This document shows, in pieces, positions 1,161 through 61,019 of a stretch of 62,133 nt of DNA (its first letter is position 1; every line of letters begins with the position of its first letter). A program made the translations under genes and the position numbers. The notes beneath the pieces were generated by a model. It searched no databases. It was not told where the DNA came from and saw nothing but the letters and a program-made list of their open reading frames with translations. Source of the stretch: Lachnospiraceae bacterium (GTDB lineage Bacteria > Bacillota > Clostridia > Lachnospirales > Lachnospiraceae); NCBI GenBank assembly GCA_017441265.1, contig JAFRYE010000019.1, forward strand, positions 1 through 62,133, given 5' to 3'.

Positions 1161-3323
1161 TCACTCCCCGATCTCCTCGGTGCGGATGATGAATTTCACA
1201 TTTCCGCTCATCCCCTCTGCAATTCCCGAGTAATTGTCGTACACGTCGGCAGCCGCGGCAATTGCTTTCAACCGTGCGGCAAATGTCTCAACATTTCCGT
1301 CGAACAGCGTGACGATCCTCCGGACCGCTTTTCCGTCAAACTCCTCAAGCCCGTCCGACAATGCCTTAGCACCGTCGCACAGCTGCCGGATTCCGTCCGT
1401 AAGCGCGGGAATTCCGTCGCGCAGATCGGCGATTCCCCTGTGAAGTTTCTCCGCTCCCGAAGCCAGATCGGCATTGCCTTTGGAAAGCGATTCTGCGCCG
1501 GTAGCAAGCGTATCCGCACCTTTCGCCGCCTGCGTCACGCCGTCGGTATAGGCAAGGATTCCGTCGTAAAAGCGCTTGTACTCGTTGAGCGATCTCTTCA
1601 GATCGGCTACCTTCACGGCTCCTGCCGAAGCAGCGGCCAACTTCGTTTTTACCTCCTCGCCGTTCATCGCATCGGCGCAGGCTTTCGCAACCTGTGCCTC
1701 CGTATTTGCCGCGATTGTCTTACTGATTTCCGCAGACGCCATCTTCTCCGCCGCGGTCTTTGCAATGATCGCCCTGACTTCGTCGCTCTCCATCTGCGCA
1801 GCGACCGCTGCTTCCACGTACGCCGCAACTTCTGCGGACTGCATCTGCGCTTCCGCTGCCGCTTTGACTTTCGCCGCCACCTGATCCCGAACAGCCTCGG
1901 TGACCGCCTTCTCGACTTCCGAGCGGACCGCTGCCGTCACCTGCTCTTTGATATACTCGCGCTTCGATTCAGCAGCCTTCTTCACTTCCGCTTCCGCCTG
2001 CCTGTATACGGCATCCTTATCCAGCGAAGCGATCACTTTATCCAATACCGCGGCGTAGTTGTCGACGGTAAGCGTCGGGATCGTGAGGCCTGCCGCAGTC
2101 AACTGCTGCTGTGCCTCGGAAAGCAGAGAGAGGAAAACCTGCTTCGCGCCTGCTCGAAGCGCCGCGGAGTTGGCATCCAGTTCGGAAAGTCCGGCATCGA
2201 GTTTTCCGGCACCGTCCGCAAGTTTCTTCGCTCCGTCCGCCGCCTTCTTCGCGCCGTTTGCAAGCTCTTCGGAACCTTCCGCAAGCTTGTCGACGCCGTC
2301 CGCAAGCGTTCCCGAGCTCTCCAGCAGTCTGCACAGTCCGTCGTACAGAGCGCCGGATCCGTTTTCCAGCTGCGTCATGGCGTCCGAAACCTGTGACAGG
2401 AGTTCATCGACTTCCGAGAGGGAATCCAGCTTCCCGACATTCAGCCCCCGGAATACTTCATTTGCGGCGATCGTCAGCGTCATTCCCAGCGAAAAATCCT
2501 TCACATTCGCGGTAATCTCCACGTATTCCGGCACGGAAGCCACCGCTCCGGCGATCCCGAGATCCTCCGCGATCCCCGGGAATGCCCAACCGACGACCGC
2601 AGTTCTCGACCCGTCGCTGATCAACCGGCCGTTGGTCACGGATACATCGGAAAATGTCTCTCCGTCCAGCAAAACCCCGGTGATCATCACAAACGGGACA
2701 TGTACGGTCATCTCCTTACCGTCAACCGTCACGGTCTCGCGTTTCCGGTTTTCGTAGTCAAAGCGGATCGTAACCCTTCCACTCTTGCCGGCAATCTCTT
2801 TCGCAGAGATTTCCTTTCCGTCCAGCAGATACGTTACATGCACCGCTACCGGCACTTCCGCATCGGCTTTGCCGCGGTAATACACGTCCCCGTCCGCCGC
2901 GTTCCAGACCTTCGTCGCACCGTCCGCAGTCATGGTACTGTTGCCTTTGACAACCTCGATTTCCGTGAGATCGGATACATCCGTAAGCGCTCCGTTCCCG
3001 GCGGAGCCGGAGAGCCGGTCGCTCACGATCACGGATTTTTGGGTTCCGTCCGCATCCGCAAGGATGTAGACGGTCTCTTCCTTTGCGACGGTCTTTCCGT
3101 CATGGTTTTCCTCTGAAAATGCCTTTTCCGCAACTTTTCCGGCATCGGGATTCCGGTCGGTCGACTGTTCGGAAGCCGGAATTTCTGCCTCATTTTCCGA
3201 AGCGCTTCCGCCGGCGGCGCCGGACGCACCCATCCCGCATCCGACCGTACTCAATACCAACGCTGCGCACAGAGCGATCGCCCCGATGCTATGTCTGATT
3301 CTTTTATCCCTCAAAGTTTTCAT
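1161..3323 (-). CDS. YhgE/Pip-like coiled lipoprotein partner of the MMPL exporter
   Basis: A 720-residue secreted lipoprotein with an N-terminal signal ending in the lipobox STVGC (about residue 20). The middle (roughly 320-400 and 620-680) carries many short repeats such as LADGVDKLAEGSEELANGA, the X-x-L-x-x-G-A pattern typical of the extracytoplasmic part of YhgE/Pip-type proteins. Between them lies a long, highly charged Ala/Glu/Lys-rich coiled coil (about 430-600). Start 3323 is used because GAGGAAAGGAG sits just upstream and it opens the signal peptide. It overlaps the end of the MMPL exporter gene by 20 bases, so translation is probably coupled. Inference: it works with that exporter at the membrane, perhaps in export of lipids or envelope material. 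Confidence 0.7.
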   Translation of the reverse strand: MKTLRDKRIRHSIGAIALCAALVLSTVGCGMGASGAAGGSASENEAEIPASEQSTDRNPDAGKVAEKAFSEENHDGKTVAKEETVYILADADGTQKSVIVSDRLSGSAGNGALTDVSDLTEIEVVKGNSTMTADGATKVWNAADGDVYYRGKADAEVPVAVHVTYLLDGKEISAKEIAGKSGRVTIRFDYENRKRETVTVDGKEMTVHVPFVMITGVLLDGETFSDVSVTNGRLISDGSRTAVVGWAFPGIAEDLGIAGAVASVPEYVEITANVKDFSLGMTLTIAANEVFRGLNVGKLDSLSEVDELLSQVSDAMTQLENGSGALYDGLCRLLESSGTLADGVDKLAEGSEELANGAKKAADGAKKLADGAGKLDAGLSELDANSAALRAGAKQVFLSLLSEAQQQLTAAGLTIPTLTVDNYAAVLDKVIASLDKDAVYRQAEAEVKKAAESKREYIKEQVTAAVRSEVEKAVTEAVRDQVAAKVKAAAEAQMQSAEVAAYVEAAVAAQMESDEVRAIIAKTAAEKMASAEISKTIAANTEAQVAKACADAMNGEEVKTKLAAASAGAVKVADLKRSLNEYKRFYDGILAYTDGVTQAAKGADTLATGAESLSKGNADLASGAEKLHRGIADLRDGIPALTDGIRQLCDGAKALSDGLEEFDGKAVRRIVTLFDGNVETFAARLKAIAAAADVYDNYSGIAEGMSGNVKFIIRTEEIGE

Positions 3324-5427
3324 GATGAACACTCCTTTCCTCCTCATCTCTGCTGTCATCCGCTATTTTTCGCATTCCCGCTGTGGTCCTGCCGATCAGG
3401 CCGTCGCACAAAAGCAACAACGCGGGCAGCGCACCGATCACCATCAGCATACTGACTACGGCGCCTCGCGCCATCAGGTAACACATGGCGCTGATGATAT
3501 CAATCTCCGAGTACACCGCAACACCGAAAGTTGCCGCAAACAGTCCTACACCGGAAGCCAGAATAGACGGGATTGATGTGGCGAGCGCCGTCTGAACGGA
3601 AACTTTTCTTCCGACTCCCAGTGCCCGCTCTTTCTTGTACCGCGTTGTCATCAGGATCGCATAGTCCACGGTCGCTCCGAGCTGGATCGTGCTGATGCAG
3701 ATCGGCGCGATGAACGGAAGACGCTGTCCGAGGTAATGTGGGATTCCCAAATTGATGAAGATGGCAACCTCAATCACCGCGATCAGGATCACCGGCAGGC
3801 TTAGGCTCTTCTCCACCAAAGCGATGATCACGAAAATTGCAGCAATGGAAACGATGTTGACGATCCGGAAATCCCGGTCCGTCGTTTCAATCATATCCTT
3901 CATGCACGGCGCTTCGCCGATCAGCATGCCGCCCGCATCGTACCGCTTCAGGATGGCATTGAGTTCCTCGACCTGCGCGTTGACCTCATCGCTCGCGCAG
4001 GAGTATTCGGAGTTGATCAGCAACAGCTCCCATCGATCGCTCTTGAGCAGGGATGTCACGGACTTCGGCAGGATTTCCTCCGGAACGGCAGAACCGATGA
4101 CGGATTCCAGCGAAAGAACGTAGCGCACACCCGCAACGGACTCCATTTCACGACTCATTTCACGCACCGTCTTGGGTGAGAGCGTCGCGTCCGCGAGAAC
4201 CATGTGCGTGGAAGCAATGTCGAACTCCTCATTCAGTTTAGTGTTCGCGATCACGCATTCCATATCCTTCGGAAGCGTCTCCAGCATGTCGTAGTAAACC
4301 TCATCGGAGGTCTTTTTGTACCCGTAAAATGCAGGGACAATCAGGATGACAAAGATGATCAAAAACACCGGGAATGCCTTGACGACCGCTGCCGCAGTCT
4401 TCCCCGTCTTCGGCAGCAACGAACGGTGTTTTGTCTTTTGGAGAACCTTATCAAAGGTCAGGATCAGGGCCGGAAGCACCGTCACGCATCCGATGACGCC
4501 GAACACAACACCCTTGGCCATGACAATCCCGAGGTCACGCCCCATCGTGTATGTCATAAAGCACAGCGCGATAAAGCCGGCGATCGTCGTGATCGAACTG
4601 CCGACCACACTGGCGAGCGTTTCGCGGATGGCCAAAGCCATCGCTTCCTTACGGTCATCCGTCGTCTCACACTGCTCGTTATAGCTGTTCCACAGGAAAA
4701 TGGAATAATCCATCGTGACGGCCAACTGCAGCACCGCCGAAAGCGCTTTCGTGATGTACGAGATCTCCCCGAAGAAATAGTTGGTACCGAGATTCAGCAC
4801 GATCATCATCGCGATGGATGACAGAAACACAAGCGGCGCCACCCAGTTGTCCAGCAGGAGCAGCATCGCGGCAAGCGCCAGAGCCACCGCGATACCGACG
4901 TAGATCGGTTCCTCTCTCTCGCACAGGTCCTTTAAGTCCGTAACCATCGCCGACATGCCGGTGACAAAGCACTGTTTTCCGGCGACGGAACGAATCTCAC
5001 GGATGGCATCCATCGTAACATCCGCCGAAGTCGATGAGTCGAAAAATACAGCCATCATCGTGCAATCATCGGAGTTGAACGCCCGGTAGACATTTTCCGG
5101 GAGCACTTCCATGGGGATTGAGAGATCCGCGAGGGAATCATACCAGACAACGCTCTCCACATGGTCGATCGCCGCGATCTTCTGCTTCATTGCCGCAACA
5201 TCCCGCTCCGGCATATTTTCGAACACCAGGAAGGAAAATGCCCCCTTGCCGAACTCTTTCATCAGCTCGTCCTGCCCCTGAACGGTTTCCATGTCGGAGG
5301 GCAGATAGGTCAGCATATCGTAGTTAACCCTCGTGTGGATATACCCGAAAGCTGCCGGGATCATCAGCAAAAGCGTTATGATCAGGATCGGGATCCGGTG
5401 TTTGACAACAGCACGCGCAAATTTCAT
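3304..5427 (-). CDS. MMPL/RND-family membrane exporter
   Basis: A 707-residue protein with the duplicated RND architecture: one N-terminal membrane helix, a large extracytoplasmic domain (about 35-170), five clustered helices (about 180-340), then a second copy with a helix near 355, a loop (about 380-530) and helices to about 700. Each repeat's central helices follow the MMPL/SSD pattern, for example VTMDYSIFLWN and ATVDYAILMTTRY with the D-Y pair of the proton relay. The length fits Gram-positive MMPL transporters. Three ATG codons are clustered (5436, 5433, 5427); 5427 gives the best spacing to AAAGGA. It follows the TetR gene but is separated from it by a strong terminator. A lipid, peptide or drug substrate is possible; the substrate is not visible from sequence. 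Confidence 0.85.
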   Translation of the reverse strand: MKFARAVVKHRIPILIITLLLMIPAAFGYIHTRVNYDMLTYLPSDMETVQGQDELMKEFGKGAFSFLVFENMPERDVAAMKQKIAAIDHVESVVWYDSLADLSIPMEVLPENVYRAFNSDDCTMMAVFFDSSTSADVTMDAIREIRSVAGKQCFVTGMSAMVTDLKDLCEREEPIYVGIAVALALAAMLLLLDNWVAPLVFLSSIAMMIVLNLGTNYFFGEISYITKALSAVLQLAVTMDYSIFLWNSYNEQCETTDDRKEAMALAIRETLASVVGSSITTIAGFIALCFMTYTMGRDLGIVMAKGVVFGVIGCVTVLPALILTFDKVLQKTKHRSLLPKTGKTAAAVVKAFPVFLIIFVILIVPAFYGYKKTSDEVYYDMLETLPKDMECVIANTKLNEEFDIASTHMVLADATLSPKTVREMSREMESVAGVRYVLSLESVIGSAVPEEILPKSVTSLLKSDRWELLLINSEYSCASDEVNAQVEELNAILKRYDAGGMLIGEAPCMKDMIETTDRDFRIVNIVSIAAIFVIIALVEKSLSLPVILIAVIEVAIFINLGIPHYLGQRLPFIAPICISTIQLGATVDYAILMTTRYKKERALGVGRKVSVQTALATSIPSILASGVGLFAATFGVAVYSEIDIISAMCYLMARGAVVSMLMVIGALPALLLLCDGLIGRTTAGMRKIADDSRDEEERSVHHENFEG

Positions 5428-6260: not shown

Positions 6261-8075
6261 TTACTGTGCGTTTTCCTCGATCGTCGTCTCGCGGATCGCG
6301 CGGCTGTCGATCTCCTCGCGTACCATGCGGATGAAATCCTCGACGGACTTCTGTCCTTCGTCGCCTGCGAAGCGGCTGCGTACGGACACGAGACCTTCCT
6401 CAGCTTCCTTCGGACCTACGACGAGCATGTACGGAACACGCTCCATTCTCGCCTCACGGATCTTGTAGCCGATCTTTTCGTTGCGGTCGTCAAGCTGTGT
6501 GCGGATGCCTGCGTCGTCAAGCATCTGATTAACCTTCGCCGCATACTCGTTCGTCTTCTCGGAGACCGGAAGCACCTTAACCTGCATCGGAGCCAGCCAC
6601 GTCGGGAACTTGCCCTTCGTCTCCTCGATGATGTACGCCATGAAACGATCCAGCGATCCGAGGATCGCACGGTGCAGAACGACCGGCGTCTTCTCTTCGC
6701 TGTTCTTGTCAATGTACTTCAAGTTGAACTTCATCGGCAGACAGAAGTCAAGCTGGCACGTTGAGAGCGTGTACTCCGCACCGACGGCGGGCTTCACGTT
6801 GACATCGAGCTTCGGCCCGTAAAATGCAGCCTCACCGATCTCCTCCGTGTACTCGATACCGATCTCGTTCAAAACTTCGCGGAGCGCATTTTCCGCATTG
6901 TTCCACATCTCATCGTCCGGATGATACTTTTCCGTGTCGGCCGGGTCGCGGAGCGACAATACACAGCGGTAATCCGTGATCCGGAAATCCTTGTAAACCT
7001 CGAAGATCAGGTCGACAACCTTGCTGACCTCGTCCTTGATCTGCTCAGGCGTCACGAAAAGGTGCGCGTCGTTCTGGCAGAAGTGACGGCCTCTCTCAAT
7101 ACCCTTGAGTGTACCGCTGGACTCAAAGCGGAAGTCGTGCGCGATCTCACCGATACGGATCGGCAGCTCGCGGTAGCTGTGCGGCTTGTTCGCGTAGATC
7201 ATCATGTGGTGCGGGCAGTTCATCGGGCGAAGCACGAAGCTCTCGCCTTCCACCTCCATCGGAGGGAACATATTTGCCTTGTAGTGCGCCCAGTGACCGG
7301 ACGTCTCATACAGAGCGACCGTGCCGACGCAGGGCGTCAAAACGTGCTGATAACCGAGCTTCAGCTCCTTGTCGCGGATGTAGTTCTCAAGCTCTCTCCA
7401 AACGGTGTAACCGCGGGGAAGGAACATCGGGAGTCCGCGGCCGATCAGGTCGTCCGTCATGAACAGTCCCATTTCCTTACCGATCTTACGATGGTCGCGG
7501 GACTTTGCCTCCTCCATCTGCTTCTCATACTCCGCGAGCTCTTCCGTCGTTGCGAAGGCAACGCCGTTGATACGCGTGAGCATCTTGTTCTTGGCGTCAT
7601 TTTTCCAGTAAGCACCGCTCTGCATCGTGATCTTGAATGCCTTCAGAGCCTTCGTGTACGTGATGTGCGGACCGACGCACATATCGACATAGTCACCCTG
7701 CTGATAGAACGTGATCCTCGCGTCCTCCGGAAGGTCTCCGATATGCTCTACCTTGTACTTCGCACCGCGCTTCTCAAGGTAATCGATCGCCTCCGCGCGA
7801 GGGAGTTCAAACGTCTTGAAGGGGAGATTCTCCTTCGTGATCTTCTTCATCTCATTCTCGATCGCGAGAAGGTCCTCGTCGCCGAGCTTGCGGTCGCCGA
7901 GATCGACATCGTAATAGAAGCCTCTCTCCGTTGCGGGACCGTACGCGAAATCAGCCTCCGGCCACAATCTCTGGATTGCCTGCGCCATGATGTGCGCCGC
8001 CGAATGACGGAGAACATGCGTTACTTCTTCTGCGGGGCATTCCGCCACCGTGCCGTCGTTGTAAATAATCTTCAT
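6261..8075 (-). CDS. thrS: Threonyl-tRNA synthetase lacking a TGS domain
   Basis: A 604-residue class II synthetase that charges tRNA-Thr in the cytoplasm. The editing domain carries the HxxxH metal motif (H24 and H28, HSAAHIM). The catalytic domain has the zinc-site motif MNCPHHMMIY and the class II motifs EIAHDFRFESSG (motif 2) and LGSLDRFMAYIIEE (motif 3). The anticodon-binding domain spans about residues 500-600. Most bacterial ThrS proteins have a complete ~60-residue TGS domain before the editing domain; here only about 20 residues precede HSAAH. The short start is supported by AAGGAGCAGGAAA directly before ATG 8075 and by the T-box leader upstream. Confidence 0.97.
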   Translation of the reverse strand: MKIIYNDGTVAECPAEEVTHVLRHSAAHIMAQAIQRLWPEADFAYGPATERGFYYDVDLGDRKLGDEDLLAIENEMKKITKENLPFKTFELPRAEAIDYLEKRGAKYKVEHIGDLPEDARITFYQQGDYVDMCVGPHITYTKALKAFKITMQSGAYWKNDAKNKMLTRINGVAFATTEELAEYEKQMEEAKSRDHRKIGKEMGLFMTDDLIGRGLPMFLPRGYTVWRELENYIRDKELKLGYQHVLTPCVGTVALYETSGHWAHYKANMFPPMEVEGESFVLRPMNCPHHMMIYANKPHSYRELPIRIGEIAHDFRFESSGTLKGIERGRHFCQNDAHLFVTPEQIKDEVSKVVDLIFEVYKDFRITDYRCVLSLRDPADTEKYHPDDEMWNNAENALREVLNEIGIEYTEEIGEAAFYGPKLDVNVKPAVGAEYTLSTCQLDFCLPMKFNLKYIDKNSEEKTPVVLHRAILGSLDRFMAYIIEETKGKFPTWLAPMQVKVLPVSEKTNEYAAKVNQMLDDAGIRTQLDDRNEKIGYKIREARMERVPYMLVVGPKEAEEGLVSVRSRFAGDEGQKSVEDFIRMVREEIDSRAIRETTIEENAQ

Positions 8076-8374
8076 TTTCCTGCTCCTTTCCTTGCGAGTA
8101 AAAGATCGTGTCGTGCGTCATCGGAAAAAAAAAATCCCCTGTTGACGCATCTTGCATCAACAGGGGCGATAGTATCGTGGTTCCACCCTGCTTGGCCTTT
8201 CGGCCCTCTTCATTGATGACGGTAACGGAGTCACCGGACCGGATTGGGGTCACTCGGGAGACGGTCTTCCGCACGGTTTCCGCCGGACGCTCTCAGCCTG
8301 CTTTCACATGCGTCCTTCTCTGTTCGTCAACCCACAGTGCGTACTGCTTTCTCCTTCAACGCTTTAAAACTGTT
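8076..8374 (-). ncRNA. T-box riboswitch (threonine) in the thrS leader
   Basis: The minus-strand leader of thrS contains the conserved T-box sequence GGGTGGAACCACG (8188-8176). It is followed by an intrinsic terminator made of TCAACAGGGG/CCCCTGTTGA arms (8157-8166 and 8136-8145) and ten U residues (8134-8125). The stem I region includes an AGTA element and an apical GTGAAAGC loop. An ACC codon at 8277-8275, in the context GGAA-ACC-G, is a plausible threonine specifier. Uncharged tRNA-Thr would stabilise the antiterminator and allow thrS transcription. The specifier is the least certain part. Confidence 0.93.
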
Positions 8375-8538: not shown

Positions 8539-11500
8539 ATGAAGACATTGCTGAACAACAACTTCCTTTTCCGCAAATTCCCCATCGACACGGCGGAATC
8601 CGACATTCTCTCCGCGGCCCATGACGGTACGGGGTTTTCGCCCGTCGACATCCCGCACGATTTTCTGATCGGTCAGGTCACCGACCTCTACGAAACATGC
8701 ATCGGCTGCTATGTGCGCACACTGTCCCGCGACAAGTCGGTGCCTCACGTCTTCCTGCAATTTGACGGCGTCTACATGGATTCCCGGTTTTACATCAACG
8801 ATACGTTGGTACACACCCATCCTTATGGGTATTCGCAAGTTTTTTTCGAGATCACTCCGTATCTGCAGCCCGGTGAAAACACTCTCGTCGTGACGAGCCG
8901 GTACGAATCGCCGAACACGCGCTGGTACTCGGGCGCCGGAATCTATCGAAACTGCTATCTCCGGGAAACCGGCGACGCCTACCTTCCGGAAAACGGCATC
9001 TATACCGTCGCGACGCCCGTCTGCGATGCGCGTAACGGATCCGGCATTTTCCCCGGAGAAAGCCTTCTCACCGTCGACACGGAGGTCGTTTTAGGTTCTT
9101 ATGATCACGCGCTTCTCCGCCACACGCTCCGGGATGCATCCGGCGCCGTTGCGGCATCTTCGGAAGCCGTCGTAACGCCTTCGGGATCCGGCATTTCCAC
9201 GCAGGTGCTCACCGTGCCGGACGCTGCTGCCTGGGACATCGACACCCCGTATCTCTACGAGCTCACGACGGAGCTTTTCGTCTCTTCGGAAAATGCCTCC
9301 TGCCCCGTCGATTCGCACACACAGCGCATCGGTTTCCGCTCCGTGCGGCTTGATCCCGACCGCGGCTTCTTCTTAAACGGCCGCCACAGAAAGCTCCACG
9401 GCGCCTGCATGCACCACGATCTCGGAGCGCTCGGCGCCGCGGTCAACAAGGCAGCGACGAAGCGGCAGCTTCTCTCGCTTCTTTCGATGGGTGTGAACGC
9501 TGTGCGCACCTCCCACAACATGCCTTCGCCGGAGTTCATGGATCTCTGCGACGAGCTGGGAATCCTCGTGGACTCCGAGGCGTTTGACATGTGGGAACTG
9601 CACAAGACCGAACACGACTATGCGACATTCTTTAAATACTGTTGGCAAGCGGATGTGGCCGCCTGGATCCGCCGGGACCGCAACCGTCCTTCGGTCTTCT
9701 TCTGGAGCATCGGCAACGAGATTTACGACACCCACACCGAGCGCGGACTGGTAGTCACCCGCGAACTACGCGACGAAGTCCGCCGCCATGATTACCGGCA
9801 TCACGCCTTCATCACCATCGGCTCCAACTACGTCGCCTGGGAAGGCGCGCAGCGCTGCTCCGACTTGCTGGAAGCCTCCGGATACAACTACCTGGAGCGC
9901 CTCTACGGCGAGCACCACGAGCGCTACCCGCACTGGTGCATCTACGGCAGCGAGACGTCGTCCACGGTGCAGAGCCGGGGAATCTATCATTTTCCGGCTG
10001 ATGTGAGGCTGCTGACCTTTGAGGACGGCCAGTGCTCATCGCTCTCCAACTGCTCCACCAACTGGGGTGCGAAAAATCCGACCGTCGTCATCACGGGGGA
10101 TCGCGACTGCCCTTTCTCTCTCGGGCAGTTCATCTGGACCGGCTGGGATTACATCGGCGAGCCCACACCCTATCACTCGAAAAATTCGTTCTTCGGGCAG
10201 TGCGACACCGCAGGCTTCCCGAAGGACTCCTATTACATTTACCAGGCCGGCTGGACCGACGCGGAGACGCACCCGATGGTGCACATCCTGCCCTACTGGG
10301 ACTTTAACGTCGGTCAGATGATCGACGTGCAGGTCTTCTCGAACTGTCCCCGCGTGGAACTGTTCCGGGACGGCAGGTCTCTCGGGACCCGCGACATCGA
10401 CGCCGCTGCCGGCCCGACGTTGCACGGCGAATGGCGCATTCCGTATGCGCCCGGGGAACTTACGGCCGTCGCTTACGATCCCGACGGGCGGATTGTTGCG
10501 ACCGACCGCCAATGCTCCTTCGGAGACCCGGCGTCCGTCGTGCTCTCGCCGGACCGTATGACCATGAACGCCGACGGCACGGACATGATTTTTATCGAAG
10601 TTTCCACGCTTGATGCACGCGGCACCTTCGTCGCGAATGCCCGCAACCGGATCAACGTCTCCGTGACCGGCGCGGCGCGCCTTGTCGGCATGGACAACGG
10701 CGACAGCACAGACTATGACGAATACAAGGGAACGTCCCGCAGGCTCTTCTCGGGGCGGCTTCTTCTGATGCTCGCGGCGCGCAAAGAACCGGGCATAATC
10801 GCCGTAAAAGTGTCCTCCCCGGGGCTTCCCGACGCCGAACTCTCGCTAACCGCGCTTCCCGCTGACAGCGATCCCGCCGTATGCGCCTCCGCGGAAAATG
10901 CCCCTTGCATCACGGACGAGTCCGTCCTCACCGAGGTGCCCGTCCGCAAGATTGCCCTCTCCGCCGACGGTGCCGATGAAGGATGTATTGAGCTTTCCCC
11001 CGCGCGCCCCTCTGTGCTCGTTCGGGCAACTCTTTACCCGGAAAATGCCACCCTGACGGACATCTTCTTCCGCGCGCTGACTGCGGACGGGATAGACTCT
11101 CCTGCCGTATCTCTTACCGTGCAGCCGGACAACAGCTCCGTGCTCGTGACCGCCCTCGGCGACGAGGCGCGGTACTTCCTGTACGCCTTTGCCGCCAATG
11201 GCAAGCCCCACGCCGACATCATCTCCTCTCTGGAGATGCGAAACGTCTCCTTAGGGCGCGCCACGACGGACCCGTACAGTTTCGTCAATGCGATCCGCTG
11301 CGACAACCGGGCTGACGTCTCCCTCAGTTTCGACGGTGGCGTATTCACCGCCGACGAGCCGACATGGATCCGGTTTGGCAACATCGACTTCGGTGATTAC
11401 GGCTCCGACGAGATCACCGTGCCGATCTTCTCATTTTCCGACAAAGTGCCTCTGGAGATCCGCGAAAACAGCCCGGAGGGCAAGCTGCTGTTCGCCGGAA

Positions 11501-12032: not shown

Positions 12033-14873
12033 TCAGGTTTTGTCTTCGCGCCTCCTTCGCTCATAAAGAACAACATACACGGCTGAGCCGATCATCGCTA
12101 TGAGCGTGATCAGCTCGCCGGCCAGGCGAAGCGGTTCCCGGTATTCCAGGAACACGCGGTTGACTCCGGTCTCCAGCTCCACGCCCATATATCCGACGTT
12201 CGCATGGTACAGCGTCGTCTTTTTGCCGTTGACGTAGGCCGTGAACCCGTCGTGGTACGGGATCGCGATGCACAGCAGTTTCGGCTCCGACGTCGTCACC
12301 GTCGCGGAGATTGTCGTCCCGCCGAGAACGATGTCCGTCGCGGTATCCTCGCGGCGCTTTTCGATCTCTTTGACATAACCCTCCATCGGCCGGCACCACA
12401 CGCGAAGCGCGTCGAAGCTGTACGTTCCGGCTTCCGTGAACGTGATGCGGATCTTGTTCTGCGCCGCCTCGGAATACCCGAGATTCACGCAAAAGTCCTC
12501 CCTGCCGTTATAGTAGCGGTACTCGTTGTTATATAAGACCAGACTCTTTTCCGTGCCGGTTTCCGCAAGAAGCACCATCTCTGCGGTATCCGGCACTTTC
12601 CAATCGATCCGATCCGTTGCCAGGAAGCGGAAATCCGCCGGTTTTTCGAATGTGAACGGACCGACGGTGATCGGCTTTTTATACGGTTTCTGCCCCATCG
12701 GCTTCGGCTCCTGCCCGGTCGTCGGCGCGATCTTCGCTCCGCTCACCTCGACCATCGTCTCCGACTTCGGCAGTCCTTCGAACGTGATCCATGCGACAGC
12801 CCCCTGTTTTTCCACGGTGAACGTACCGCCGTAAAAAGTTACATACCCGTCGCAGGAAATCTCATACGGGCATTCTTTCGACAACCGGTACGCGTCCGCC
12901 GTGCCGGCCTCGATGCCGTCCGGCGTCTCCTCCAAAACCATTGCGTGCAACAAAATATCTTCCTTCTCCGCCGCCGACCGTTCGTCCCATGCAGACCTCG
13001 GCAGGAACGAATCGTAGGTGTACATCACCGGCAGCGAATACTCATTGCGAAAGAGTTTCGTCTTCCCGTCGGACATGGTCCCGACCTCCGTGAAACCGAA
13101 AGGCGCCTTTGCACTCACCGCCGGATTTTCCAGGTAATAGCGAACCGCCGCAAGGGACGTTAAGATCGCCCGCTCGTCGTAGTTGGAGTACTTGTAGATG
13201 CTATATTCCCGAATCGCAATTGCAGAGCGATACTCCGCAAGCGCCGGACTTGCGATAGTCCAGTAGAACTGGGTGGAGGACACGCCGCCCACTACGTTGG
13301 CATTCAGCTCAAGCCCCGTGCCGGAGTATCGGAACCATTTCGTATCGCCCAAGGACTGCACGGCTGCCTGAATCTCGGAAGCCTCATTTTCCGTATCCAC
13401 CGTCACCGCGTCCCACACAAAGGCCGATTTCGCGGCATAAGAATCCGAGATGTACGCATTGAGCCAGAAGCTGTTGACGCCAAGGGCAAGCGCGATCAAA
13501 CCGACGGCCGCCGCAGCCGGACTTCGCCGATTCTCTCCGTCTTCCGCAGGCCGCAAAACCCATATAGTCAGCGCGAGCAGCGCAACGCTTCCGAAGGCGC
13601 GGAGCGTTCGGGAATTCCAGGCGATGATGCAAAACGCGGCATAGACTCCGCAGCAGATGCACAGGAATTTCCACTCCTGCTTCGTAACCGACATCAAGTC
13701 ATCCCAGACGATCACCAGAGCCGTCGCGCACACGAGCGCAAGCGCAAAACTCCAACGGTTGGTGATGTAGGAAAATCCGTTCATCATCCGGCCGAACACG
13801 GGAAATACGGCCATCACGCCGCAGATTGCCATGCACAGTTTGCAAAAGCCGTTGCCCTTGCGCCGCCACATCAGGCAGATTGCAGGAAAGACCGGCGCCG
13901 CTATGCCGAGGCAGAACCAGTGATCGTTGCCCGAGGAGAGCGTCAGAACGGGAAGTTTCGCATAGTAGCTCAGCGGATACAACCAACGTCCGACATTTTC
14001 CGTTCCCATGCGAGCGTTGGTCAAAAACGCACGGCACATCGGCAGGAAAATGACCGCCGACAGCAGGACTCCGACCGTTGCCGCTGCACCGAGCCGCACC
14101 AGCGGGCGAAGGATCTCACCGCCGGCTTTTCTGCGAAGCCACAGGATTCGGGCAACGGCATACATCGCCGCCAGGATTGCCAGAAGATAAAAGAAATAGA
14201 AATTGCTGAGACCCGCGACTGCCACCGTCCCCGCAAAAAGGTACGGGCGCTCCTTTCGCAGGATCTTTTCGATGCCGACCACCAGGAGCGGCAGATAGAT
14301 GCACGGATTTAGAAAATACGGATGTCTGGCGGCGTTGAACAAGCCCCAGTAAGCGAAGACGTAGGCCATCGCTCCGGCGATCAGCGCGACATTTCCGGGT
14401 TTGCGGACAGCCTCCGCGGCGTCCTTCGCCGGGCGGCACAGCGTGCGGCACATCCACGTGAACGCAAGGCCTGCCAGATACATTCGAAGAAGGATCATCG
14501 CGACATAATAGACGATCATCAACCGCGACGGGATCAAAAACGAAAAAAACGCAAAGGGATCCCCGATGACATAGTAGTGGAACGTCTCCAGAATGTCATT
14601 GCCCTCGCCGATCGCGACGTCAAACGTCGGGATGACGAAGGTATTTTCCGTGAACGCGTTCCGCACGATGCCGCGCAGATACTTTGCGTAATACAGGATT
14701 GCTTTATAGTGCTGTGCCCAGCCGTCCCCTTTCCACAAAAGGGCACGGCCGGCACAATAATACCATGGAAATACGATCAGACAAACCGCGAAAAATGCGA
14801 TCGTATACGAGCGCAGGAAACTTTTGCTTCCGTCTTCCGCGCGATCTGTCCAACGACGGATCATTTTTCTCAT
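12033..14873 (-). CDS. YfhO-family multi-pass membrane protein
   Basis: A 946-residue membrane protein. About a dozen helices fill residues 20-480, followed by an extracytoplasmic beta-rich domain (about 490-905) and a final helix near 915-935 before an Arg-rich tail. This matches YfhO-type proteins, which resemble GT-C glycosyltransferases and are linked to glycosylation of lipoteichoic acid or other envelope polymers. The first loop contains WKGDGWAQHY, where GT-C proteins carry catalytic acidic residues. Its ATG overlaps the stop of the symporter gene (TAATG), so the two are translationally coupled. The donor and acceptor are not known from sequence. Confidence 0.85.
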   Translation of the reverse strand: MRKMIRRWTDRAEDGSKSFLRSYTIAFFAVCLIVFPWYYCAGRALLWKGDGWAQHYKAILYYAKYLRGIVRNAFTENTFVIPTFDVAIGEGNDILETFHYYVIGDPFAFFSFLIPSRLMIVYYVAMILLRMYLAGLAFTWMCRTLCRPAKDAAEAVRKPGNVALIAGAMAYVFAYWGLFNAARHPYFLNPCIYLPLLVVGIEKILRKERPYLFAGTVAVAGLSNFYFFYLLAILAAMYAVARILWLRRKAGGEILRPLVRLGAAATVGVLLSAVIFLPMCRAFLTNARMGTENVGRWLYPLSYYAKLPVLTLSSGNDHWFCLGIAAPVFPAICLMWRRKGNGFCKLCMAICGVMAVFPVFGRMMNGFSYITNRWSFALALVCATALVIVWDDLMSVTKQEWKFLCICCGVYAAFCIIAWNSRTLRAFGSVALLALTIWVLRPAEDGENRRSPAAAAVGLIALALGVNSFWLNAYISDSYAAKSAFVWDAVTVDTENEASEIQAAVQSLGDTKWFRYSGTGLELNANVVGGVSSTQFYWTIASPALAEYRSAIAIREYSIYKYSNYDERAILTSLAAVRYYLENPAVSAKAPFGFTEVGTMSDGKTKLFRNEYSLPVMYTYDSFLPRSAWDERSAAEKEDILLHAMVLEETPDGIEAGTADAYRLSKECPYEISCDGYVTFYGGTFTVEKQGAVAWITFEGLPKSETMVEVSGAKIAPTTGQEPKPMGQKPYKKPITVGPFTFEKPADFRFLATDRIDWKVPDTAEMVLLAETGTEKSLVLYNNEYRYYNGREDFCVNLGYSEAAQNKIRITFTEAGTYSFDALRVWCRPMEGYVKEIEKRREDTATDIVLGGTTISATVTTSEPKLLCIAIPYHDGFTAYVNGKKTTLYHANVGYMGVELETGVNRVFLEYREPLRLAGELITLIAMIGSAVYVVLYERRRREDKT

Positions 14874-28453: not shown

Positions 28454-28528
28454 CCCCTATTTTGAGCCAGGTCCGTCGGCGGCGACCGCGGAAAATGCCC
28501 GAAAACTCCGCTAAAATGCAACTTTTTC

Positions 28529-34559: not shown

Positions 34560-34646
34560 GGTATCCTCCTGTTATCGCGGCCTGCGCCGCGGATTCATCT
34601 CATCTTTCGTGTGCAAACCCTTCCTCGGAAAATGCACACGTCTCAT

Positions 34647-45388: not shown

Positions 45389-45446
45389 GATGCCATCTCC
45401 TTTCATTCGGAAAATGCTTCCTTTCGTGAATCTCTCCCGGAAATAC

Positions 45447-46861: not shown

Positions 46862-46891
46862 CGGGGAAGCGTCATTTTCCACGCCTCCCCG
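46862..46891. other. Hairpin whose loop is the GGAAAATG octamer
   Basis: CGGGGAAGCGT (46862-46872) pairs with ACGCCTCCCCG (46881-46891) over 11 bp, one pair being a mismatch or G-U depending on the strand. The 8-base loop is exactly CATTTTCC, the reverse complement of GGAAAATG. It lies between the anti-sigma gene and the anchored-protein gene, without a U-run. Confidence 0.7.
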
Positions 46892-46950: not shown

Positions 46951-48099
46951 TTATTTCGAAGGAACAAACAGTGACGCGGTTGCGTCCGCCGCCGTTCCGT
47001 GGAAAAGGTATAAAAATACTTCTTCTCCCATGTCGATCCCGAACCACATTTGATCGTACTCTTCGCCGTCCTCGCTGTGATGAACGATCCGACGCTTCAG
47101 CACCTCGTCCGTGAATTCTTCCGGCCGGAAGATCGGTGAATTCGCAGATGAATTGAATTCCTCTGCATCAACGATCCACAGCGGATCCTCACGATCTCTC
47201 ACATCGTACAAATCAGCGTCCGCCGCGCTGATCAAACGCTCTTCATAATTAACAACATCCTCTTTTTTCCGTACGACGACGCCCAGGAAATCGTAATCAT
47301 TTCCGTTATCCTTGTAAAACCAGATCGCGTTATACCGGTCATACTCGGCGTCTCTTTGCGTCGCACAGTGATACGCATACAGGGAACGCAGTTCCTTTGA
47401 CAACTTCGGATAATACTCCGATGCCATCGCTTCCTCTTTCGACAGAACACGTTCATTTTCGTTGAGATAATTCCAGACTGTGAACGGATTCGTCAACCCG
47501 GATTCACCGATCGGCGTCGGTGTCGGCTGCGGCACGCCCATCGTCGGTGTCGGTGTTGCATCCGGAATACCCGGCGTCGGCGTTGCCGTTATCTTCGGAA
47601 TGTCCGGCGTCGGCGTTGCCGTTATCTTCGGAATACCCGGTGTCGGCGTTGCCTTCGGAATGTCCGGAGTCGGCGTTGCCGTCATCTTCGGAATGTCCGG
47701 TGTCGGCGTTGCCGTTATCTTCGGAATGCCCGGTGTCGGCGTTGCCGTTATCTTCGGAATGTCCGGTGTCGGCGTTGCCTTCGGAAGTTCCGGTGTCGGT
47801 GTCGACGTTGTCTGCGGCATCTCCGGAGTCGGTGTAGTCTGTGCCGGCGGAGTCGGCGTCGTTACAACCGTTTGGCCGGGGCCTGCCGGAGGCGACTTCA
47901 AGACGCCGCTCTTTACAAGCCAGACGCCGACGATCAGAACAACTGCTGCCGCCGCGACCCCCGCGATCATGCGCAGGCGATACATCGACAGTTTAGTTTT
48001 TCCGGTTTTCGGCGTTTTCTCGCGGTACGGATCGGCCTCCTCGATCAGGCGGTCGTCAATACCCGCGACGATATGCAGAAAATCATTTTCCTTCTTCAT
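46951..48099 (-). CDS. Membrane-anchored anti-sigma-like protein with Thr/Pro repeat
   Basis: A 382-residue protein. Residues 1-40 are cytoplasmic and charged (FLHIVAGIDDRLIEEADPY), the size expected for a sigma-binding segment. A membrane helix follows (about 45-63), then a Thr/Pro-rich stalk (about 75-195) of repeated TPTPDIPKITA units, and a globular extracytoplasmic domain (about 200-382). Its start overlaps the end of the ECF sigma gene by 4 bases (ATGA), the classic arrangement for a cognate anti-sigma factor. No zinc-binding HxxxCxxC motif is present, so the anti-sigma role rests on context and topology. The outer domain may sense an envelope signal. Confidence 0.8.
   Translation of the reverse strand: MKKENDFLHIVAGIDDRLIEEADPYREKTPKTGKTKLSMYRLRMIAGVAAAAVVLIVGVWLVKSGVLKSPPAGPGQTVVTTPTPPAQTTPTPEMPQTTSTPTPELPKATPTPDIPKITATPTPGIPKITATPTPDIPKMTATPTPDIPKATPTPGIPKITATPTPDIPKITATPTPGIPDATPTPTMGVPQPTPTPIGESGLTNPFTVWNYLNENERVLSKEEAMASEYYPKLSKELRSLYAYHCATQRDAEYDRYNAIWFYKDNGNDYDFLGVVVRKKEDVVNYEERLISAADADLYDVRDREDPLWIVDAEEFNSSANSPIFRPEEFTDEVLKRRIVHHSEDGEEYDQMWFGIDMGEEVFLYLFHGTAADATASLFVPSK
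47520..47870 (-). repeat. Tandem repeat encoding Thr/Pro stalk
   Basis: About ten units of 33 or 24 bases encode TPTP-x-IPKITA or shorter forms. Units differ mainly at single codons (Asp or Gly, Ile or Met), so the array has probably changed copy number by slippage or recombination. Nearby 33-base periodicity is clear on both strands. Confidence 0.85.
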
Positions 48100-48656
48100 A
48101 GCGTGTATCCTTCCTTTCTCAGCTGTGCTTCCAGTTTCTTACGCATGCGATAAAGGATGGACAACGTTTTACTCTCGCTGATTCCCTGAAGTTCCGCGAT
48201 CTTGCGCACCGGCAGAAGATACCATACGCGCTGCACGAACACGATGCGGTACAGCTGCTTTTGCGAAGTCAGGAACCCGTTGATGTTCCGAAGAAGCTCT
48301 TCGGTGTTCAGATCATCGTCCGAGTCGTCCGTCGTCATCAGGATGTTTTCGAACTCGGAAAATGAAACCGGCTCCGCTCCGTCTCCCCTCTTCCTGCTCG
48401 ACGCACTGCGGCATCGATCGATGGAGAGATTGCGAACGATACGTCCGAGGTAAACGCGGAAATTGTTCGGTTTTGTCGGCGGGATCGAATTCCACGCCCG
48501 AAGATAAGTGTCGTTGACACACTCATCGGCATCCTCGTGATTCCCCACAATACCGTACGAGATGGACCGACAATAGCCCGAATATTTCTTCTCCGTCTCC
48601 CGGATGGCCATCTCTGACCGGTCGAAATACAATTTGATGATTTCGGCGTCATCCAT
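48096..48656 (-). CDS. ECF-type RNA polymerase sigma factor
   Basis: A 186-residue sigma factor with region 2 at about 15-85 (GNHEDADECVNDTYLRAWNSIPP) and region 4 at about 120-180 (VWYLLPVRKIAELQGISESKTLSILYRMRKKL, a helix-turn-helix for the -35 box). Region 3 is absent, as in all ECF factors. It is followed by an overlapping gene for a membrane-bound partner. AAGGTGG precedes ATG 48656. Upstream at 48701-48728 lies TGCAAT-16-CGTCTC, which looks like an ECF promoter, so it probably transcribes its own operon. Confidence 0.93.
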   Translation of the reverse strand: MDDAEIIKLYFDRSEMAIRETEKKYSGYCRSISYGIVGNHEDADECVNDTYLRAWNSIPPTKPNNFRVYLGRIVRNLSIDRCRSASSRKRGDGAEPVSFSEFENILMTTDDSDDDLNTEELLRNINGFLTSQKQLYRIVFVQRVWYLLPVRKIAELQGISESKTLSILYRMRKKLEAQLRKEGYTL

Positions 48657-48807: not shown

Positions 48808-49995
48808 TTACTGCAAAACCGCGGGCTTGCTGAGCACGTCCGCGATGATACCGACGGCCTCGTCGACAAGGGCTTCGGTGTGCGAAGCCATGTAGCTCGT
48901 GCGCAGCAGGCACTCGGTGGGTGCCGTTGCGGGCGGCAGCACCGGATTGACGTACACGCCGGCTTCGTAGAGCTGTTTCGCGCGCAGAAGCGTCGTCTCT
49001 GTGTCGTAAGTGTAGATCGGAATGATCGGCGTGTCGCTCATGCGAATGCGGATTCCGCGGTCAAGCAACCCATTGCGGGCACGTGCCGAGATCGCCTGCA
49101 GTTTCAGCGGCAGCGAAGGATCGCGCTCGAGGATCCGAAGCGCCGTCAAAGCGACCGCGCAGCTGGCCGGCGTGATGGACGCAGAGAAGATGAACGGACG
49201 CGAATTGTGTCTGACGAAGTTCGCCACTCTCTCGCTGGTTGCCATGTAGCCGCCCAGGGACGCGAGTGATTTGGAAAATGTTCCCATGTAAATGTCAACA
49301 TCGTTCTCCAAGCCGAAATAGCTCGCCGTACCGCGGCCGCCCTCGCCGATAACGCCGAGGCCGTGCGCATCGTCAACCATGACGCGCGCACCGTACTTCT
49401 TAGCCAGTGCGACGATCTCCGGGAGTTTTGCGATGTCGCCGCCCATACTGAACACACCGTCCGTCACGATCAGGCAGCCGGCCGTCTCCGGAACTTTCTT
49501 AAGCTGTGCCTCAAGGTCCTCCATGTCGGCATGGCGGAACCGAAGCATCGTTCCGTAGCTCAGTTTGCAGCCGTCATAGATGCTTGCATGGTTCTCCCGG
49601 TCGCAAATGACATAGTCATGTCTTCCGACCAATGTGCTGATAATTCCGAGGTTGGACTGGAATCCCGTGGAAAATGTCACCACACTCTCCTTGCGAAGGA
49701 ATTTCGCGAGTTCAGCCTCCAATTCAAGATGAAGTTCGAGCGTACCGTTCAGGAAACGAGATCCCGAGCAGCCGGAACCGTATTGTTCAAAAGCCTTGAT
49801 GCCTGCCTCCACAACCTCCGGATGCGTCGTCAGTCCGAGGTAGTTGTTGGAACCGAGCATGATGCGCCGCTTACCCTCCATAATGACTTCCACATCCTGA
49901 CGGCTCTCAAGCGCATGAAAATAAGGATATATCCCCAATTCTTTTATTTCATCAGCCCTTGTAAATCTGAGACATTTGTCAAACAAATCGTCCAT
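48808..49995 (-). CDS. Alpha-oxoamine synthase, serine palmitoyltransferase-like
   Basis: A 395-residue PLP enzyme that condenses an amino acid with an acyl-CoA. The PLP lysine is K242 in GTFSKSLASLGGY, the Asp/His pair lies in VDDAHGLGVIGEGGRG, and NNYLGL and GSGCSGSRFLNGTLELH form the substrate pocket. In wording and spacing it recalls bacterial serine palmitoyltransferases of Bacteroidetes (YPYF near the start, CDRENHASIYDG, GVFSMGGDIA) more than BioF or Kbl, although those remain possible. No biotin genes or threonine dehydrogenase gene is adjacent. ATG 49995 follows GGAGGGG at 5 bases. It is monocistronic with a good terminator. If a serine palmitoyltransferase, the cell might make sphingoid bases. 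Confidence 0.85.
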   Translation of the reverse strand: MDDLFDKCLRFTRADEIKELGIYPYFHALESRQDVEVIMEGKRRIMLGSNNYLGLTTHPEVVEAGIKAFEQYGSGCSGSRFLNGTLELHLELEAELAKFLRKESVVTFSTGFQSNLGIISTLVGRHDYVICDRENHASIYDGCKLSYGTMLRFRHADMEDLEAQLKKVPETAGCLIVTDGVFSMGGDIAKLPEIVALAKKYGARVMVDDAHGLGVIGEGGRGTASYFGLENDVDIYMGTFSKSLASLGGYMATSERVANFVRHNSRPFIFSASITPASCAVALTALRILERDPSLPLKLQAISARARNGLLDRGIRIRMSDTPIIPIYTYDTETTLLRAKQLYEAGVYVNPVLPPATAPTECLLRTSYMASHTEALVDEAVGIIADVLSKPAVLQ

Positions 49996-56273: not shown

Positions 56274-56414
56274 TAAAAATCCTCCTTTTAGGGTGATAAC
56301 CGATTGGGCAAAGATTCCCCAATCCCCAATGGTATATCTTACCACTTTTCCGCATTATTTTCCAGTGTTTTTATCACGGAAAATGACTCTTTTCGGCATT
56401 TCGTCGTTTTAATG

Positions 56415-57073: not shown

Positions 57074-57103
57074 ATTATAGCACATCGGAAAATGCAATTG
57101 CAA
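57074..57103 (-). promoter_or_regulatory. Promoter of the CarD-like gene
   Basis: TTGCAA (57103-57098) and TATAAT (57079-57074) are 18 bases apart. A GGAAAATG octamer occupies the spacer (57087-57094). Confidence 0.7.
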
Positions 57104-57197: not shown

Positions 57198-58022
57198 TCA
57201 CATCCGTAAAAGACGCTCCGTAAGGACCGCAACGCCGTCGTGCATGTTGTCCTCCGTAACGAAATCTGCGACGGCTTTGACCGACTCGGAAGCGTTTCCC
57301 ATCGCGACGCCGCAGGCCGCTGCCTGAAGCATCAGAATGTCATTTGGCGCATCTCCCACCGCCACGGTCTCCTCCATGGAAACCCCAAGGATCTGCGCGA
57401 CGCTGCGAAGCGCCTCCGCCTTAGAAACATCGCTGTGGAAAAACTCAAGAAAGGTCGGCTGCGACATCCATGCCGCCGTGTCCTTCGGAAGGCCGCCCGG
57501 CATCACATCGCCGCCGTCCGCGTGAACCTGCTCATTGAACGACGCGATCCGCTTCGGATCGTCGTACCACAGGATCTTCGAGATCCCGGCGTCGTACAGA
57601 GTTTCGACGGGCGGCATCGGCTGCGGGGTCATTTTCCCATAGGTCCGTCCGTAATCCTCAAGGCGCCAATCCACGGGCAGCCCGTAGAGCCGGTTCGAGC
57701 TCCAGATGATCTGGCTCACACCGTTCTTCCGTCCTGCCTCGAGCACGTTCTTCGCCGCCTCCGGCTCCAGGTCTCTTTTGTAGATGATCTCCTCCGTCAC
57801 GGCATCCACGATCATCGCCCCGTTGCTGGTGATGACCGGCACGGAGAGCCCGAGTTCCGCGGCAAATGCCTTCGCTCCCGGCCAGGCGCGCCCCGTCGAG
57901 ATCACGACGTGCATCCCGCACTGCTGTGCCTTTGCCAAAGCCTCTCTGTTGCGCTCACTGATCCTCTTATCGTCCGTCAGCAGCGTCCCGTCCAGATCGA
58001 TCGCAAGCAGTCTGTATTTCAT
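57198..58022 (-). CDS. Cof-type HAD-IIB family hydrolase
   Basis: A 274-residue phosphatase of the haloacid dehalogenase superfamily. Motif I is AIDLDGTLL (nucleophile D9, acid D11), motif II is VVISTGRAW, the lysine of motif III is in DVSKAEAL, and motif IV is AVGDAPNDILML. A type IIB alpha/beta cap lies between about 85 and 195. Such enzymes dephosphorylate sugar phosphates, flavin or pyridoxal phosphates; the substrate cannot be told. It lies 21 bases downstream of the serine hydrolase gene and is likely in one transcript with it. Confidence 0.92.
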   Translation of the reverse strand: MKYRLLAIDLDGTLLTDDKRISERNREALAKAQQCGMHVVISTGRAWPGAKAFAAELGLSVPVITSNGAMIVDAVTEEIIYKRDLEPEAAKNVLEAGRKNGVSQIIWSSNRLYGLPVDWRLEDYGRTYGKMTPQPMPPVETLYDAGISKILWYDDPKRIASFNEQVHADGGDVMPGGLPKDTAAWMSQPTFLEFFHSDVSKAEALRSVAQILGVSMEETVAVGDAPNDILMLQAAACGVAMGNASESVKAVADFVTEDNMHDGVAVLTERLLRM

Positions 58023-60206: not shown

Positions 60207-61019
60207 TCAGCGGTTCCACTGCTCCCGAAGGTACGCAACCTGCCGGTTGAGCATGTCCGTGTCCACCGCGCCGGTCTTGTCGAAGGCCGTCGATTCCAGC
60301 GTGAACGTATCGTCATAGCCCGTGCTCTTCACAAACGAAAGGAATGCCTCGAAGTCGACCTTGCCCGCACCGATGGGCAGCGTCTTAAGGGCTGTCCAGT
60401 CCTTGTAACCGCCTGCGTAGTCGTTGATGTGGTAGTGGCGCACCAAGCCTTCCTTCCACGCCCACGCGTACTCACCCTCGCAAAATGCCTCGATCTGGCC
60501 GTGGAACGCCGCCATCTTCGTGTCGAAGATGAAGTGCGGATCCTCGTAGCGGTCCGCGATCTGACGCCAGTGCAAAAGCGGGTCCTCCACGTTGCAGACG
60601 ACATTTTCCACCAAGAGGTCGACGCCGTGGTCCGCCGCGATCGCGCGCAGATCGCCGTACGCCTTTAAGTTGTTCTCAAAGCAGCAGTCCGAGATCTCGC
60701 CGTTCCAGAGGTGGAACACCATGCGGTCGGCTCCGATGTCGTGGGCCTGTTTGGCGTTGACGGACATCTTCCGATAGGCCTCCGCGAAATCCCCTCTCGT
60801 CACGTCCTCGCCGACGGTCTTCTGGCAGTGGTATACCGGGATGGTGAGCCCAAGGGTGTTCACGTAGTCCGTGATCTCCTCCACGGTGTCGTACCACGTG
60901 CTGTACATCATGAACTCCACGCCGTCGCCTTGCAGTTTCTTCGTTAATTCCCCGAGGAGTCTCGGGTTGCGGCCGTTGGGGCGCCCGATGAGCGCGCCTG
61001 TGGAACACAATACTCTCAT
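60207..61019 (-). CDS. Sugar phosphate isomerase/epimerase (TIM barrel)
   Basis: A 270-residue TIM-barrel protein of the AP-endonuclease-2-like sugar isomerase family. Metal-binding residues appear at the ends of strands: the Glu in LLVENVV, the His in VRHYHINDY (with D), the Asp in FIFDTKMAA and the Glu in FTLESTAF. Characterised relatives include xylose isomerase-like, hydroxypyruvate isomerase and tagatose 3-epimerase enzymes. ATG 61019 has AGGAG 7 bases upstream. It lies between pfp and the SDR gene on the same strand. The exact sugar is not known. Confidence 0.85.
   Translation of the reverse strand: MRVLCSTGALIGRPNGRNPRLLGELTKKLQGDGVEFMMYSTWYDTVEEITDYVNTLGLTIPVYHCQKTVGEDVTRGDFAEAYRKMSVNAKQAHDIGADRMVFHLWNGEISDCCFENNLKAYGDLRAIAADHGVDLLVENVVCNVEDPLLHWRQIADRYEDPHFIFDTKMAAFHGQIEAFCEGEYAWAWKEGLVRHYHINDYAGGYKDWTALKTLPIGAGKVDFEAFLSFVKSTGYDDTFTLESTAFDKTGAVDTDMLNRQVAYLREQWNR

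Follow-up and report, generated by a model that had tools for sequence, protein, structure and literature searches.

The octamer GGAAAATG, found here in a contig of a Lachnospiraceae bacterium, probably forms the core of a DNA uptake sequence specific to its genus, similar in kind to the DNA uptake sequence (DUS) and the uptake signal sequence (USS), and spread by biased transformation. The window, i.e., the whole stretch of DNA that was analysed, covered 62,133 nt (positions 1–62,133 of the forward strand of contig JAFRYE010000019.1, assembly GCA_017441265.1) and contained 48 exact copies. An uptake-like role was favoured because of the density of the word, the decay of its over-representation with mismatches, its lack of strand polarity, its intergenic excess, dialects that largely followed lineage, and the presence of pilus and competence genes. 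Together these traits match published accounts of uptake sequences (PMC3630211, PMC1939737, PMC7811141). The word is claimed as one that likely works like an uptake sequence, and is not filed as DUS or USS proper, because preferential uptake itself lies outside sequence data, the words are unrelated and the lineages are distant.

The genome carrying the window (G000; other G numbers denote related assemblies and L numbers fetched loci) was an assembly of 2,585,061 bases in 79 contigs. A sample of 432,294 bp, consisting of the window and 20 further stretches, was analysed with genes from a simple in-house caller. Copies in the window lay on both strands (27 + and 21 -), 47 of them within positions 2649–60609, from which an earlier note on this DNA had reported at least 44. 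Only 2.74 copies were expected from 100 dinucleotide shuffles (maximum 7) and 4.3 from an order-3 Markov model. Higher-order expectations rose to 20.4 (order 5) and 43.8 (order 6) because the word itself makes its constituent 6- and 7-mers common. The genome-wide count suggested in that note left the over-representation standing, with 1,684 copies (881 + 803 by strand), or ∼0.65 per kb (an exact match every 1.5 kb), compared with 37 copies of its reversal; the over-representation is thus a property of the whole genome and not of this locus. Among the 280 octamers composed of identical letters, GGAAAATG led with 271 copies in the 432 kb sample, ahead of a second word with 54 and a median of 8, and its enrichment over an order-2 expectation was 12.9-fold. 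Spacing in the sample was Poisson-like (mean 1,548 bp, coefficient of variation 0.99), which ruled out a regular chromosome-packing signal.

An origin in codon use or amino acid content was ruled out by synonymous-codon shuffles and by the intergenic enrichment, in agreement with the earlier note. Our gene calls placed 38 window copies in coding sequence, 9 between genes and 1 over a gene edge; for the coding ones, 500 shuffles gave an expectation of 3.06 (maximum 8). All seven sites named before as intergenic were so by these calls, as were those at 1127 and 29980. The 432 kb sample held 202 coding, 63 intergenic and 6 gene-edge copies, with 18.2 coding copies expected (100 shuffles, standard deviation 4.4, maximum 29). 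The word had been said to be read in several frames, and all six frame/strand classes were in fact enriched (observed/expected 10/1.2, 11/2.3, 17/2.7, 51/1.1, 37/3.4, and 76/8.4); orientation relative to the gene was even (103:99 for the 202 coding copies). Density was about three times higher in intergenic (1.50/kb) than in coding DNA (0.52/kb), and the 63 intergenic copies compared with 5.1 expected from trinucleotide content. The ratio of leading to lagging strand was 143:125 (3 ambiguous, p 0.30), with strand inferred from local GC skew in an assembly that is not closed; in the same 432 kb, the 8-mers with the strongest polarity, e.g., GGAGAAGG, reached 59:3. For GGAGAAGG and other purine-rich 8-mers, the leading strand held ∼90% of the copies or more, a pattern that resembles polar words of the FtsK/SpoIIIE type, and codon use may contribute to this polarity.

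The word was non-palindromic and 8–9 letters long, and its fuller motif is (C)GNAAAATR, in which a mildly preferred C is followed by G, a third base ranked G>T>A>C, AAAAT and a last base ranked G>A. For the 9-mer CGGAAAATG, the observed/expected ratio (O/E) with G, T, A, or C as third base was 16.7, 14.6, 8.7, and 5.4, respectively, and replacing the final G by A gave 6.8. The first C was only mildly preferred (O/E 7.5–10.3 with other bases), and substituting either of the final two A in AAAA or the T lowered the ratio to 0.5–1.2. With 0, 1, 2, and 3 mismatches O/E was 16.7, 2.38, 1.05, and 0.97, compared with 0.7, 1.14, 1.16, and 1.06 for the reversed 9-mer. The cognate form is CGGAAAATGC, and CGGCAAATGC and GGAAAATGTGA are sister-dialect forms. 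Past the adjoining bases, flank information in the 432 kb sample did not exceed 0.13 bit, and a dispersed repeat or transposon footprint was ruled out by these diverse flanks. C preceded the word in 62% of the sample copies and A or C followed it in 78%. The extended form YGGAAAATGH proposed earlier agreed with the window in that G seldom followed (3 of 48 copies); the preceding base was C (27 of 48) and not Y.

The counts indicate that the word marks one genus. Sixty-one relatives included 22 genomes of the genus, with 221–1,763 copies of GGAAAATG, and in the other genera the word was far less above its reversed control. A family survey of 200 genomes from 199 genera revealed 1,042 copies of CGGAAAATG in G000 and 763 in one congener; the other 198 genomes had 401 (G118), 337 (G134) or at most 277, and the top four of the rest were genomes larger than 5 Mb. 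All other members of a set of 391 class genomes had 153 or fewer. In G118 and G134, which belong to other genera of the family, the ratios to the reversed 9-mer were 401:15 (27-fold) and 337:20 (17-fold). Given these counts the word may extend past the genus; in small samples of the two genomes (28 and 21 kb) it was not ranked first. Samples of 100 kb from each of four other family genera (G024, G025, G026, and G034) had no word as outstanding as in the genus. In the G025 sample (L190–L194) the top words were of the GTAGGTGTTGC type (up to 11.1), which were enriched in coding DNA only and probably reflect a repeated protein motif. Of 80 fetched pilus loci, 44 reached 18 kb and were put through the screen, and only that of the cyanobacterium Aliterella atlantica (L143) was clearly outstanding (15.0), owing to fragments of HIP1; one of them, AGCGATCG, with 23 copies against 1.2, serves as the positive control of the screen. 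L109 (9.6, coding only), L084 (9.2, a GC repeat) and L113 (8.9) were marginal. Power was low in this screen, in which the locus of a genus member (L065) gave no word signal and the pilus operons of the genus are word-poor.

Sister species appear from these sequences to use dialects, which differ in the third base (A or C) and in an extra A at position 11. A screen for words exceeding the expectations of a Markov model and of codon shuffles alike ranked GGAAAATG or CGGAAAAT first in G000, G002, G005, G009, G010, G011, G014, G015, and G017, and second in G003. The top word was CGGCAAAT in G007 and, weakly, in G004, and AAAATGTG(A) in G001; CAAATGTG and GGCAAATG led in G008. No such word was found by the screen in 200 kb each of G006 and G018 (L278, L279), and in the whole genomes of these two GGMAAATG was only 1.5 times its reversed control. 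The samples of G012, G013, G016, and G019 (7–32 kb) were too small or without the word, and G020 and G021 were unsampled. Counts over whole genomes were in line with the screen. The C share, i.e., GGCAAATG/GGMAAATG, with the numerator taken as whole-genome GGMAAATG minus GGAAAATG, was 11–25% in G000, G002, G003, G005, G009, G010, G011, G014, G015, and G020, and 33–56% in G001, G004, G007, G008, G012, G013, G016, G017, G019, and G021; examples are G000 (273 of 1,957, 14%), G007 (622 of 1,294, 48%) and G013 (614 of 1,105, 56%). GGMAAATG was followed by NNA in 79% of cases in G013, 75% in G001, 74% in G021, 51% in G008, 47% in G017, and 43% in G019, and in 15–30% in the remaining 16 genomes of the genus.

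On a tree of the PilT locus (19 rows), five dialect labels, assigned after the counts were known, required 6 changes, compared with a mean of 9.4 after shuffling (0 of 200 shuffles as low). The word-less pair G006/G018 accounted for one change, with a support of 97/97. G012, labelled with the GGAAAATG group, was a poor fit at a C share of 35%. The long branches of the rows for G012 and for Lachnoclostridium sp. UBA1781 (NCBI: Lachnospiraceae) were probably due to the cut-out catching a second PilT-like gene. Such a gene lies between PilB and PilT in UBA1781 (L065:8795-9910) and in G012 (G012:C126:28839-29744), and the operons of G000 and G007, read from PilB on, are without it.

Conservation of individual sites in sister genomes, a check also proposed in the earlier note, was seen in species of the same dialect and not in the others. 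At 34 G000 sites compared with dialect-sharing species the word was kept on average in 31.6% of cases, the in-phase neighbouring 8-mers in 10.8% (sign-flip p 0.003), and at 26 sites compared with other species of the genus in 6.8% against 5.5% (p 0.34), leaving out sites with gaps and counting G007 apart. The word was thus held in place only where the dialect was shared.

Matches to ComEC were found in 58 of the 61 relatives and in 20 of the 22 genus genomes, and DprA likewise in 20 of 22. A ComEA-type domain occurred in all 22 (21 over the cut-off), in G000 at 4 kb from ComEC. The T2SSE family had five matches over the cut-off and one below it in G000, two of them adjoining on contig 30, where a pilus operon outside the window (G000:C30:37952-52249; L046/L047) carries PilB and PilT. 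Reading of the sequences suggests that the same operon also encodes PilC, PilD, PilM, PilN/O-like proteins, two pilins and several minor pilins. Its PilT was 95% identical to that of UBA1781 and 92–100% identical in 18 of the 22 genus genomes (a fragment in G014), word-less ones included; the four genomes without it are 79–85% complete. One minor pilin (G000:C30:49546-50043) had relatives that were 58% identical in G011 and 34–38% identical in four other lineages. It matched only the N-methylation motif in Pfam, and its 14 PDB matches were pilin-type and all within residues 1–66. Profiles of GspH, ComGD, and PRK10506, which we take to correspond to PpdA, matched six of six members of this group with E up to 0.1, the G000 member lying below the cut-offs.

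The longest word-free stretch of the 432 kb sample, 13.6 kb, covered most of the pilus operon. The desert is a post hoc observation, and operons that are orthologous do not count as independent cases. The 14.3 kb operon of G000 held 1 GGMAAATG against 10.5 expected, and its windows were the lowest of 633 overlapping windows (1 GGAAAATG against a mean of 9.3). Observed/expected values for GGMAAATG in the operon were 2/8.8 in G011, 1/4.4 in G007 and 3/7.2 in G001, and the operon pieces of the word-less G006 and G018 had 1 against 2.2 expected each. Sequence conservation alone does not explain the desert, the density being 0.38–0.66/kb across alignment bands.

Based on these features, a mechanism can be proposed in which competent cells of the genus would capture free DNA on their surface by means of a retractile type IV pilus, and a pilus-associated DNA-binding protein, for which the above minor pilin is the candidate, would prefer word-bearing DNA. 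Retraction driven by PilT would pass the DNA to ComEA/ComEC, and DprA/RecA would recombine it into the chromosome. If word-bearing fragments entered more often, word alleles arising by point mutation would spread by molecular drive and words would pile up wherever tolerated; a shift of receptor preference between species would then give rise to dialects, and its loss to decay of the word. The word, its distribution and restriction to the genus, the dialects, the persistence at orthologous sites of a shared dialect and the presence of the genes are seen directly in the sequences, and we infer that the genes named would make these bacteria competent, that uptake would be biased towards the word, and which protein would read it.

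Several observations weigh against an uptake function. G006 and G018 carry PilT, ComEC, a ComEA-type domain and DprA, so that presence of the genes does not predict the word. ComEC was in two pieces in G016 (G016:C63:24535-25331) and G017 (G017:C57:53707-54488), which may reflect recent loss of competence or assembly error, and in G017 stop codons occurred inside the gene despite many words. The receptor candidate is a GspH/ComGD-like minor pilin on weak profile matches. On the PilT-locus tree the GGMAAATGC label required 3 changes, no better than shuffled, and did not form one clade, and the NNA group, with one change, had weak support (48/7). The orthologous sites compared were few, and in G007 the word was kept at two of nine sites, no better than the control (22%). 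Close pairs (<100 bp, any orientation) were not in excess in the 432 kb sample (15 against 16.4 expected, 9 of them inverted). This also ruled out a role as hairpin terminator; inverted pairs at terminators are a frequent trait of uptake sequences and no functional requirement. Codon-atypical genes, taken here as a stand-in for newly acquired DNA, were not depleted (0.59 word/kb against 0.42–0.55), while uptake sequences are described as depleted in newly acquired segments (PMC7811141). No report of these bacteria being transformable was found among the literature matches listed.

Other functions of the word were also considered. It could be a Chi-like octamer that switches an AddAB/RecBCD-type nuclease of the genus from degradation to repair and is enriched as protection of self-DNA, although this is rather unlikely. 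Chi sites are oriented with replication in Escherichia coli and Lactococcus, whereas GGAAAATG was without leading-strand bias (143:125) in DNA whose polar 8-mers reach 59:3. Its 12.9-fold enrichment and three-fold intergenic excess are also larger than those of any Chi that we know of, and its dialects differ by single bases. The likeness lies in a highly enriched, non-palindromic, genus-specific octamer with some change between species, as Chi too differs between species (PMC3630211). It is likewise unlikely that the site is favoured by a methyltransferase (orphan or of Type I/III/IIG) or by a nucleoid protein and enriched by a mutational or repair bias, in the manner of HIP1 (GCGATCGC) of cyanobacteria. 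Restriction-linked sites are generally avoided rather than enriched. HIP1, a genome-wide over-represented octamer linked to orphan methyltransferases, does show that such words exist without known uptake function (PMC4390886), and its recovery in L143 by the same screen makes the two look statistically alike. HIP1 is a palindrome, however, and GGAAAATG is not, and the variants of the latter change at single positions between sister species.

A word for segregation or chromosome organisation, i.e., a loading site for FtsK/SpoIIIE of the FtsK-orienting polar sequence (KOPS) or SpoIIIE recognition sequence (SRS) type, a parS-like site or the site of another binding protein, would be compatible with genome-wide occurrence and Poisson-like spacing, but is very improbable. 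Loader words are strongly polar toward the terminus, and here no polarity was seen by GC skew or relative to genes (103:99), which argues against loader and Chi-like words alike; spacing was random and not regular. An artefact of codon usage, amino acid pairs, repeats or assembly contamination can practically be dismissed: some frames do read as common dipeptides (E-N, F-S), but the codon shuffles (18.2 against 202), the intergenic copies, the diverse flanks and the dialects across the genus all contradict it. The earlier note had left Chi, replication or segregation, uptake, methylation or binding, and HIP1-like functions side by side. Among these, uptake has gained support; Chi and segregation or replication signals are disfavoured because of the missing leading-strand bias, and the HIP1 and methylation readings are weakened because the word is non-palindromic and has dialects.

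Within the window, the longest word-free stretch (49677–56377) lay over xylanase-like and hydrogenase (NuoF-like) genes, consistent with the absence from hydCBA and the xylanase gene reported before, although with copies 1.55 kb apart on average a gap of 6.7 kb is unremarkable.

Exact matches of GGAAAATG (word copies) in the window, with coding status according to our own gene calls
Word copy	Strand	Coding status	Gene
1127..1134	-	intergenic	
2649..2656	+	coding	
3191..3198	-	coding	
4695..4702	+	coding	
5091..5098	-	coding	
5233..5240	+	coding	
6887..6894	-	coding	threonyl-tRNA synthetase (ThrRS)
8073..8080	-	over gene start	ThrRS; ATG of the word is the called start codon
9045..9052	-	coding	
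9288..9295	+	coding	
9988..9995	-	coding	
10893..10900	+	coding	
11040..11047	+	coding	
11432..11439	-	coding	
13385..13392	-	coding	
13994..14001	-	coding	
14045..14052	+	coding	
17192..17199	+	coding	
19732..19739	+	coding	
20798..20805	-	coding	
22183..22190	-	coding	
22828..22835	+	coding	
23060..23067	+	coding	
24574..24581	-	coding	
25639..25646	-	coding	
28350..28357	+	intergenic	
28490..28497	+	intergenic	
29021..29028	-	coding	aspartate kinase
29354..29361	-	coding	aspartate kinase
29980..29987	+	intergenic	
32815..32822	+	coding	
34627..34634	+	intergenic	
36493..36500	+	coding	pyruvate formate lyase-like
41436..41443	+	coding	
42191..42198	+	coding	
42334..42341	+	coding	
45059..45066	+	coding	
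45131..45138	-	coding	
45409..45416	+	intergenic	
46873..46880	-	intergenic	
48084..48091	-	coding	
48357..48364	+	coding	
49273..49280	+	coding	aminotransferase
49669..49676	+	coding	aminotransferase
56378..56385	+	intergenic	
57087..57094	+	intergenic	
57630..57637	-	coding	
60602..60609	-	coding	

To our knowledge, uptake tags have so far been described only in two families of Proteobacteria, and GGAAAATG would apparently be the first uptake sequence outside that phylum, in a host that, as a member of the Clostridia, is presumably monoderm and Gram-positive. Titles and abstract openings of the matches listed, mostly from the open literature, did not include any description of an uptake sequence from Clostridia, and none of the papers searched mentioned UBA1781. 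The nearest case was Veillonella parvula, whose genome was screened for words without a clear outcome (PMC5397411). Whether the genus has evolved its own self-DNA code, consisting of a type IV pilus, a 9-bp watermark and at least three dialects acting as a barrier to gene exchange within the genus, with one lineage having lost the code, is an evenly balanced question. If GGAAAATG is indeed an uptake sequence, such codes would have arisen three times or more, the additional case lying in a distant phylum, which would suggest sequence-guided transformation as a route of DNA exchange in these little-studied bacteria. Transformation of bacteria without genetic tools would gain a practical rule, namely to include the word in donor DNA, and there would be fresh material on the open question of whether uptake words result from molecular drive or mate recognition. 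As their operon is nearly word-free, the pilus genes, which may determine the dialect, would then be the least exchangeable part of the genome.

Among known systems, the DUS of Neisseriaceae is likewise a short non-palindromic word, with ∼1,900 copies in a genome of 2.2–2.3 Mb (PMC3630211), and its density of ∼0.85/kb in Neisseria meningitidis compares with ∼0.65/kb here. Absence of strand bias, intergenic enrichment, enriched mismatch variants, dialects made of small changes in sister species, and type IV pilus and ComEC/ComEA/DprA genes are shared. Uptake sequences are described as having no orientation bias and an over-representation that decays with mismatch load (PMC1939737). In contrast to DUS, the present word has an unrelated sequence, its host belongs to the Clostridia and not to the beta-proteobacteria, it had neither an excess of close pairs nor a depletion in codon-atypical genes, and it is known from sequence alone. 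The USS of Pasteurellaceae differs in its word, its phylum and its AT-rich flanking tracts, which are absent here (≤0.13 bit), and is similar in its mismatch decay, its dialects and a short core of which one part tolerates changes and the other does not. In Neisseria the DUS receptor is the minor pilin ComP (PMC3868556), and in Pasteurellaceae the predicted USS receptor is a minor pilin of the GspH/FimT type (PpdA/ComN; PMC12616744); the pilus operon described here likewise holds a GspH/ComGD-like minor pilin.

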